Assembly: GCF_030285785.1 (NCBI RefSeq)
Contig: NZ_CP127247.1
Location: forward strand, 1,449,501 to 1,513,500
Reading direction: 5' to 3'
DNA from: Parasedimentitalea psychrophila
Lineage (GTDB): Bacteria; Pseudomonadota; Alphaproteobacteria; Rhodobacterales; Rhodobacteraceae
DNA length: 64,000 nt
Part shown: piece by piece, positions 13,737 to 58,107 of the stretch
Layout of the letters: each line of letters begins with the position of its first letter
Position numbering within the stretch: position 1 is the stretch's first letter
The notes under the pieces: model-generated
Seen by the model: the letters and a program-made list of their open reading frames with translations, nothing else
What the model was told of the DNA's origin: nothing
Database searches by the model: none
Translations under genes and position numbers: made by a program

Positions 13737-14360
13737 ATGACGCGCATCCATCTTCCCGGCATTGTTGCCATGGCCATAATCGTTGTGGCCTCCAATATCT
13801 TAGTGCAATTCCTGTTCGGCCAATGGCTGACCTGGGGCGCCTTCACCTATCCCCTCGCCTTCCTGGTCACCGATGTGATGAATCGCGTCTATGGCGAAGG
13901 GCCAGCCCGCAAAGTGGTGCTTGTCGGCTTTGTTGTTGGCGTCCTTTGTTCGCTGATCGGCACCCAGATCATCGGGGAATTTGGCCCGCTGGTAACCCTG
14001 CGTATCGCCATTGGCTCTGGCCTCGCCTTTCTCATCGCGCAGATGCTGGACATCTCGATCTTCTCGGCCCTGCGCAAAGGCGCCTGGTGGCGGGCGCCGC
14101 TGGCGTCAACGCTGGTTGGGTCACTGATTGATACCGCCATCTTTTTCACAATCGCCTTTTCAGCGGCGCTGATCTGGCTTGAACCAGGCAATGATATCTC
14201 TTGGGCAGGCGAAATGCTGCCCCTGCTCGGCTTTGGCCCAATGGCGCCGCTCTGGGTGTCGCTGGCCTGTGCAGACTGGATCGTCAAGCTGTCGCTGGCG
14301 CTGATCGCTTTGGTGCCTTTCCGCATCATCGTGGGGAAGCTTACCTCGAACACCACATGA
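13737..14360 (+). CDS. yhhQ: Queuosine precursor transporter (VUT family, YhhQ-like)
   Basis: A 207-residue integral membrane protein with about six hydrophobic segments. The motif FTYPLAFLVTDVMNRVYGEG is diagnostic of the VUT/YhhQ family, as is a later ASTLVGSLIDTAIFFTIAF. E. coli YhhQ imports the queuosine precursors preQ0 and preQ1, used for modifying the wobble base of some tRNAs. It is monocistronic here, 156 bases after the phytase-like gene, and I could not fit a preQ1 riboswitch to the upstream region. The SD is weak. Confidence 0.88.
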   Translation: MTRIHLPGIVAMAIIVVASNILVQFLFGQWLTWGAFTYPLAFLVTDVMNRVYGEGPARKVVLVGFVVGVLCSLIGTQIIGEFGPLVTLRIAIGSGLAFLIAQMLDISIFSALRKGAWWRAPLASTLVGSLIDTAIFFTIAFSAALIWLEPGNDISWAGEMLPLLGFGPMAPLWVSLACADWIVKLSLALIALVPFRIIVGKLTSNTT

Positions 14361-14429
14361 TTTTGTTTTGACATCTCCATTTTCTATGCCACGCTGATCC
14401 CATGCGTAACAAATGAGAGGAGGTACTCT

Positions 14430-14486
14430 ATGTCTATTGAGAACTTGGAGTTTGGTGTCGGAACAGTTCAGGAGACTCAGCGCTGA
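14430..14486 (+). CDS. Candidate 18-codon ORF (possible leader peptide or small protein)
   Basis: The ORF reads MSIENLEFGVGTVQETQR and stops at TGA 14484. Its Shine-Dalgarno, GAGGAGGT at 14417-14424, is nearly perfect and six bases from the ATG, among the strongest in the window. A TTGACA at 14368-14373 could serve as a -35 element; no clear -10 is visible. A terminator hairpin follows about 70 bases after the stop, and arfB begins another 100 bases on. The ACCTCC at 14538-14543 can pair with the GGAGGT of the ribosome binding site. The peptide matches nothing I recognise. It may be a leader peptide, a small protein, or part of a small RNA. Confidence 0.4.
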   Translation: MSIENLEFGVGTVQETQR

Positions 14487-14553
14487 GGCAAACCTTGGCA
14501 CTAGCAGAAACTGAATTGGGGACCGCCTAACCGGCACACCTCCGAAACTCAAG

Positions 14554-14590
14554 AAGGGCTGCCCGTTACGTGTTCGGTCAGCCCTTTTGA
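14554..14590 (+). terminator. Intrinsic terminator between the 18-codon ORF and arfB
   Basis: AAGGGCTG at 14554-14561 pairs exactly with CAGCCCTT at 14579-14586, and the right arm runs into TTTT. The hairpin lies after the 18-codon ORF and before arfB, so it either ends a separate short transcript or acts as an attenuator for arfB. Confidence 0.75.
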
Positions 14591-14692
14591 TATTTTGAAC
14601 CAATTGTTGAACCGATTAATGTGACCCCTTTGGACAGATCAGCTACAACGCCGACCTAACACTCCGGCTCAACAGACCATAGGACAATCCCC

Positions 14693-15112
14693 ATGCTGCG
14701 CATCACCGACACTATCGCGTTGCAAGACTGGGAATTGAGCGAACATTTTGTCCGCGCCTCGGGGCCCGGCGGCCAGAACGTCAACAAGGTCTCTACCGCT
14801 GTGGAACTTAGGTTTGAGGCCGATCGCAGCCCAGCGCTTACCGGGCCCGTAAAGAACAGGCTCAGGCGGTTGGCCGGACGTCGCTGGACCAAAGAAGGCG
14901 CGATTGTCATGTATTGCGATGAAACCCGTTCGCAGCAGCGCAACCGGGATCTGATACGTGAAAGACTTGCCGATCTGATTCGCAAGGCGTTGGTCGCCCC
15001 CAAGCGCCGCATCGCCACCAAACCAACCCGTGGCTCGGTCCAGCGCCGCATCACCGCCAAGAAACAGCGCAGCGTATTGAAAACGACGCGGGGTAAAATC
15101 GGCGATGACTGA
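14693..15112 (+). CDS. arfB: Peptidyl-tRNA hydrolase ArfB (ribosome rescue factor, YaeJ)
   Basis: The 139-residue product contains the catalytic GGQ motif in RASGPGGQNVNKVSTAVELRF and the long basic C-terminal tail (KPTRGSVQRRITAKKQRS) that in E. coli ArfB sits in the empty mRNA channel of stalled ribosomes. It releases nascent chains from non-stop complexes as a backup to tmRNA. Length matches the family. Its upstream region holds a short strongly initiated ORF and an intrinsic terminator, an unusual arrangement for a rescue factor. The SDR gene begins 62 bases downstream. Confidence 0.95.
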   Translation: MLRITDTIALQDWELSEHFVRASGPGGQNVNKVSTAVELRFEADRSPALTGPVKNRLRRLAGRRWTKEGAIVMYCDETRSQQRNRDLIRERLADLIRKALVAPKRRIATKPTRGSVQRRITAKKQRSVLKTTRGKIGDD

Positions 15113-58008: not shown

Positions 58009-58107
58009 TGATGCTATCCTTACAGATAAGTGCCCTTCGTTGGGGAAGGGTGTCCCACCGCCAGAGCTAGGGTGCTGCGGCGCGGCGCGCAACAGGAAAA
58101 GCGACAT
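58009..58107 (-). promoter_or_regulatory. serC leader with in-frame upstream start and hairpin
   Basis: The leader contains the stem CCCTTC-CCCAAC-GAAGGG (58033-58050) just ahead of the serC SD. An in-frame ATG at 58107 is preceded by its own AAGGATAG, the same word as the serC ribosome binding site. A 'serC' leader RNA motif has been described upstream of serC in alphaproteobacteria; this could be an example, but I cannot align it here. Confidence 0.4.

Follow-up and report, generated by a model that had tools for sequence, protein, structure and literature searches.

Architecture of the locus

Between a Vut_1/YhhQ-type transporter gene and the ribosome-rescue gene arfB of Parasedimentitalea psychrophila, the window (the whole stretch of DNA that was analysed, 64,000 nucleotides (nt) in length) contains a block conserved in relatives, which we interpret as a small-RNA gene with the following parts and neighbours.

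13737..14360, + strand: Vut_1/YhhQ-type transporter gene, the upstream neighbour
14368..14395, + strand: putative promoter, read from the sequence, with TTGACA (14368–14373) and an extended −10-like TGC-CACGCT (14387–14395)
14408..14592, + strand: whole small RNA, ~185 nt
14415..14424, + strand: Shine–Dalgarno (SD) sequence GAGAGGAGGT, a diverged form of GAAAGGAGGTGATCC, predicted to anneal to the 16S tail of this genome
14419..14424, + strand: GGAGGT core of the SD
14426..14450, + strand: helix 1, the start-codon hairpin, CTCTA (14426–14430)/TGGAG (14446–14450)
14430..14486, + strand: 18-codon open reading frame (ORF) with its stop codon, from ATG at 14430 to TGA at 14484–14486, peptide MSIENLEFGVGTVQETQR
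14464..14518, + strand: helix 2, the internal helix, CAGTTCAG (14464–14471)/CTGAATTG (14511–14518)
14485..14496, + strand: helix 3, a hairpin GAGG-CAAA-CCTT over the stop codon, with a G-CARN-C loop in relatives
14538..14543, + strand: ACCTCC, the internal anti-SD and partner of 14419–14424
14554..14588, + strand: helix 4, the intrinsic terminator AAGGGCTG...CAGCCCTTTT
14693..15112, + strand: arfB (Pfam RF-1 domain), the downstream neighbour, probably outside the RNA gene

The GGAGGT and the ACCTCC lie where the original prediction placed them, and the 18-codon ORF and the intrinsic terminator that it described ahead of arfB are present. The hairpin arms of this terminator, AAGGGCTG and CAGCCCTT, are followed by TTTT ending at 14588; it escaped a simple scan for terminators, which takes only loops of 3–8 nt. 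The 5′ end of the RNA was placed from a conserved AACAA, and its 3′ end was set at the U-run. A promoter scan at the locus itself found no consensus promoter; among 72 unique Rhodobacterales elements, 14 carry TTG-N18-21-TGNCANNNT 5′ of the SD (shuffled mean 0.12, maximum 1), so that this strict motif accounts for a minority of the elements only.

Complementarity to the 16S rRNA tail

The duplex between the SD of this locus and the 16S tail of the same genome has an energy of −18.4 kcal/mol and ranks second (tied) of 55 in a comparison with 54 proxy genes, for each of which the best start was allowed, in agreement with its earlier description as one of the best in the window. The four 16S loci read in this genome all end in CTGGATCACCTCCTTTCT, and GGATCACCTCCTTTC was found in six copies. 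In most relatives, the SD is GAAAGGAGGTGATCC, which is complementary to 15–17 nt of the 16S rRNA 3′ tail, the single-stranded part beyond helix 45, and this complementarity ends at the mature 3′ end. Together with the AG that frequently follows, GAAAGGAGGTGATCC forms a 17-nt match of −32.2 kcal/mol, and the Roseobacter-type variant GAAAGGAGGTGCTCTAG retains −25.2 kcal/mol through wobble pairs. The spacing between the SD and the start codon is fixed, and ATG, GTG and TTG are interchangeable as the start. A variable-spacing pattern found exactly one such hyper-SD start site in 37 of 40 genomes, and this site was always the present element; the 40 were chosen as mostly element-bearing (plus the present genome, G000), and the information lies in the absence of further sites. 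The other three genomes (G000, G205 and G023) are all Rhodobacteraceae with diverged SDs.

These features raise the possibility of a docking or parking RNA, in which free 30S subunits or initiation complexes would be retained through the near-complete match to the 16S tail, so that the RNA buffers or signals how many ribosomes are available; the sole task of the short ORF would be to let ribosomes start and stop cleanly. We regard this as improbable but as the main rival of the translation-gated RNA that we rank first. It would account for 15–17 nt of complementarity ending at the mature 3′ end, for the sole such start site found per genome and for a peptide that appears irrelevant; extended SDs also slow ribosome escape. 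However, a pure trap would need no fixed ORF length, yet 65 of the 71 unique Rhodobacterales ORFs share a length of 18 codons. Moreover, the interior of the RNA is structured, and the SD of the present genome has itself diverged.

An open reading frame with a drifting peptide

The SD-based scans select for the SD and a Met/Val-Ser start, both of which are thus met by construction, whereas the openness of the frame is not. After removal of elements that scored below 12 for the SD or had short ends, 243 homologues remained, which we thinned to 150. None of these 150 has an in-frame stop in codons 6–14, compared with 39 and 17 having stops in the other two frames and a mean of 43 (minimum 29) in shuffles; since related sequences are not independent, these counts and the stop-position counts below make the evidence look stronger than it is. 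The ORF is 14–35 codons long in 143 of 147 unique non-Rhodobacterales cases, and the 65 Rhodobacterales ORFs of 18 codons end in TAG (30), TGA (25) or TAA (10). At the stop position, TGG occurs in 0 of 71 elements (one of them cut by a contig end), as compared with 11.5 expected if the two bases are taken as varying independently; because this test is circular on the 18-codon subset, it was repeated on all 71. The 30 family loci that we fetched all have the start codon in the same place and an open ORF (18 codons in 26, and 17, 19, 22 and 23 codons in the rest), and the five close relatives within the genus all have 18-codon ORFs. Separately, a hyper-SD precedes ORFs of 57–59 codons, resembling small exported proteins, at three loci (L187, L219 and L238).

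The peptide behaves differently from the frame. The pN/pS ratio is 0.93 in frame versus 0.85 and 0.74 out of frame in Rhodobacterales, and 1.31 versus 0.89 and 0.64 in Sphingomonadales. Among the five genus relatives, nearly every change in the ORF alters the peptide, the peptides of different orders are wholly unlike, and the conserved codons fall on RNA motifs. Thus, by these comparisons of sequences, the reading frame is under selection and the peptide is not under purifying selection. As the frame is kept open while the peptide is unconserved, what counts appears to be that the ORF is translated and not what it encodes; the simplest reading is that the passage of a ribosome matters and the peptide does not.

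The original prediction had proposed to examine the conservation of the ORF, including synonymous versus non-synonymous change, across Rhodobacterales. The frame and the place of the stop are indeed selected, whereas the substitution pattern, with pN/pS not lower in frame, speaks against purifying selection on the peptide. The same results bear on two further explanations. A functional microprotein, with the 14–35-residue peptide as the product, would fit a selected frame, start and stop behind a very strong SD, but the finding in two clades that amino-acid changes are no rarer in frame than out of frame, the peptide-altering changes within the genus, the wholly different peptides between orders and the coincidence of conserved codons with RNA motifs make it unlikely. 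A plain non-coding small RNA, in which the SD-like segment pairs with other RNAs and the ORF is incidental, would be in keeping with the filing of the family as a small RNA in Rfam and with the conserved RNA structure described below, yet 0 of 150 premature stops against about 43 expected, the fixed SD–start spacing and the interchangeable ATG, GTG and TTG starts render it very improbable. The proposal of an independent small protein or small RNA, put forward earlier as an equal alternative to arfB control, therefore divides: the small-RNA half is favoured and the small-protein half is weakened. As to a dual-function small RNA, in which peptide and RNA would both be functional, the peptide again shows no purifying selection.

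Conserved RNA structure

The predicted fold of the transcript of this locus is better than that of shuffled sequences (z = −2.95, with 1 of 200 shuffles as good), and the GGAGGT at 14419–14424 pairs in it with the ACCTCC at 14538–14543. This pairing, which had been suggested as a means by which translation could affect downstream folding, is conserved across Rhodobacterales: all six pairs are kept in 68 of 71 unique elements (shuffled mean 12.3, maximum 21), a signal of conservation with wobble and not of covariation, because the SD side is not free to vary.

Four helices were evaluated in an alignment of 33 Rhodobacteraceae sequences, comprising the window and 32 of 36 loci (L009, L011 and L038, whose stretches were truncated to 109–113 nt, and the full-length L023 were left out). 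Paired cells amount to 91.5% versus 86.2% in shuffles, and 12 of 25 pairs show changes on both sides, with 53 such cells versus 13.7 in shuffles; none of 500 shuffles reaches any of these measures, and sliding the partners destroys the signal. Helix 1, at the start codon, is paired in 84.7% of cells and has no two-sided change. Two-sided changes occur in 4 of 8 pairs of the internal helix 2, in 3 of 4 pairs of helix 3 over the stop codon and in 5 of 8 pairs of the terminator helix 4, which is paired in 98.5% of cells. In 67 of the 72 Rhodobacterales elements, the stop codon is followed by the GCA motif of the G-CARN-C hairpin that overlaps it, and a similar motif was seen by eye in several other orders. 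The conservation of the SD, ORF, pairing and terminator across Rhodobacteraceae genera exceeds chance.

In the predicted folds of other clades (for example, L066, L093, L106 and L155), the SD partner differs or is missing. The SD is thus not predicted to be sequestered in every clade, and gating by the anti-SD may be lineage-specific. A universal closing stem between codons 2–6 and the terminator was considered and rejected as weak overall (mean 5.00 versus 4.41 in shuffles); across all clades, the shuffle P value of the closing stem before the terminator is at most 0.05 in 14% of 228 elements, and such a stem is seen in some clades, as CATTGTC/GACAATG and CATGGTT/GACCATG. The segment GCAGCCCTT may form a candidate antiterminator pairing with a terminator arm.

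Genomic neighbourhood and arfB

The proximity to arfB had led the original prediction to propose that this rescue factor is controlled by the state of ribosomes on a leader ORF, which would set terminator read-through into arfB. Within the family, the transporter gene is present at all 30 loci and arfB at 27, and, of the 69 unique Rhodobacterales loci whose flanks are long enough, 57 carry a co-oriented arfB no more than 900 nt away, consistent with such a leader. Its best remaining support comes from seven loci (L007, L020, L021, L024, L030, L109 and L172) at which arfB starts 11–14 nt after the U-run; this gap leaves no room for a separate promoter, and arfB may depend there on read-through. 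However, the gap extends elsewhere to about 146 nt (the automatic gap call being wrong in at least L004), and 12 of 72 unique Rhodobacterales-type loci lack arfB within 900 nt despite sufficient flanking sequence (in 3 of the 12, it lies about 1.1 kb away), yet keep the RNA, the ORF and the terminator.

Outside Rhodobacterales, arfB was absent beside the element at the loci examined. The neighbours there include genes for an Na/H exchanger, a cyclopropane synthetase, RNase R (RNB), an aminotransferase, SMC, a gamma-glutamyltranspeptidase and a sulfotransferase; of 20 neighbour proteins compared with Pfam, 8 matched no family and could be spurious ORFs. In Bosea and Methylobacterium (L112, L118 and L153), the gene downstream of the RNA encodes an RNB-domain (RNase R-like) protein, an assignment made by a Pfam test on L112 and by similar sequence for L118 and L153. 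As the RNA is class-wide and its neighbours elsewhere are other genes, control of arfB is not supported as its main role, and the comparison of loci indicates that the element is not primarily an arfB leader. We consider the leader explanation unlikely for the family as a whole, with a local read-through link to arfB possible in some genera. Related genomes nevertheless conserve both the ORF and the terminator, whose absence there would have spoken against the earlier proposal.

Distribution and relationship to CC2171

A pattern of the SD and start, with up to two mismatches, matched 52 of 86 alphaproteobacterial genomes versus 4 of 213 genomes of other Pseudomonadota; a reversed-pattern control gave 3 matches over the whole set, with which those four are on a par. 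The pattern was found in 69 of 289 genomes of a broader sample of the class, rich in small genomes, and a scan of named genomes gave at least 120 matches, with almost only Alphaproteobacteria titles among the matches listed. One of the matches listed (L125) lies in a metagenome-assembled genome titled Gemmatimonadota and may reflect chance, contamination or transfer. Of 198 family genomes searched at the DNA level, 44 gave matches below E = 0.001, the present genome included, one of which (G108) spans the terminator only; relaxing the limit to E = 1 brings in 129 of 198 genomes, mostly by chance. Within the genus, six of eight genomes matched, the present one included, and two did not.

The Rfam model RF01867 (CC2171) gave weak matches of 26–46 bits in seven of eight family loci scanned. 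It gave none at the present locus, either directly or in a window scan at the gathering threshold, and the copy in this genome is too diverged to be reported by the model. At E up to 0.001, 101 of 121 genomes of the order have matches (the present genome has none), and those listed nearly all cover model positions 1–159; the gathering cut-off of 75 bits is reached by none of the 121 Rhodobacterales genomes. Across the class, 38 of 190 genomes have matches. Those of other orders share CAACAA-GAAAGGAGGTGATCC-N-RTG-TC, the ORF and the terminator, and the above-cut-off matches L062–L068 carry GAAAGGAGGTG[AG]TCCAGTG and an ORF of 22–26 codons. On this alignment evidence, the element is the Rhodobacteraceae form, and a distant member, of the class-wide CC2171 small-RNA family, and the small RNA is ancient and spread across Alphaproteobacteria, the present locus being one copy. 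CC2171 itself is said to be a Caulobacter small RNA reported by Landt et al. in 2008. The window's only Rfam match above cut-off is a serC leader (RF00517) at 58009–58060 on the − strand, with 72.7 bits.

A proposed translation-gated small RNA

We propose, with a probability of about one half, that the element is a stand-alone, translation-gated small RNA; we infer the gating step, a target in trans and the expression of the element. The RNA gene would have its own transcript and its own terminator. On this RNA, 30S subunits would compete with the internal anti-SD and the start-codon hairpin, and ribosomes engaging and translating the mini-ORF would open the structure and expose the 3′ half, which contains CACCTCC and the conserved CCTAACCGG. 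The exposed 3′ half could then pair with other RNAs or alter the stability of the RNA; if no ribosome engages, the RNA would close. The peptide would be a by-product. A more elaborate version, which we hold only tentatively and think rather doubtful, is a class-wide regulatory RNA read by the 16S tail: the longest SD of the genome would dock free 30S subunits, a built-in mimic of the tail would compete with them, and one ribosome passing through the mini-ORF, itself without meaning, would be the input, the RNA reporting or buffering ribosome availability throughout the cell.

If the translation-gated reading is correct, what is catalogued as no more than a Caulobacter small RNA would be a conserved, translated RNA across the class, and no other start site in the genomes scanned matches the 16S tail over a greater length. 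The way in which cells sense free ribosomes would become directly accessible, and nature would supply a test of how an SD of 15–17 nt acts in vivo; the case would also illustrate that small-RNA families and small-ORF catalogues can hide one object from opposite sides.

Comparison with known systems

The element resembles RF01867 CC2171 in its full-length alignment over positions 1–159 and in its layout of SD, start, ORF and terminator, and differs in the Rhodobacterales scores below the 75-bit gathering cut-off. In the openly accessible literature covered, CC2171 is nowhere described as being translated or complementary to the 16S tail; the accessible parts of PMC4117421, PMC10117765, PMC12559287, PMC8307010, PMC11701678, PMC5596092 and PMC5082802 do not describe it as translated. 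In the portions available, Schrader 2014 reports that most Caulobacter non-coding RNA regions are untranslated and that two earlier non-coding RNAs are translated, and PMC5596092 lists a CC2171 homologue in Mesorhizobium.

6S RNA (RF00013), which is likewise a structured stand-alone RNA, was considered and rejected, as its model has no match in the element. The only 6S match in the genome is a weak one elsewhere (L061, C1:2965525–2965682, 32.4 bits versus a cut-off of 46.4), and the RF00013 model seems to under-detect this lineage. StsR of Rhodobacter and the BjsR small RNAs of Bradyrhizobium were considered as possible counterparts on the basis of their available descriptions. According to the available part of PMC10117765, SEP1 of Sinorhizobium meliloti has 23 amino acids, the highest translation efficiency and a pI of 4.18; compared by description only, this pI has no obvious fit to the 23-residue homologues of the mini-ORF. 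The accessible text of the same source describes a further parallel, the dual-function leader rnTrpL/peTrpL of Sinorhizobium, which is also a small RNA with a very short translated ORF and a terminator at its end. However, rnTrpL is leaderless and serves as the trpE attenuator, whereas the element described here has a leadered hyper-SD, no fixed downstream gene and an unconserved peptide.
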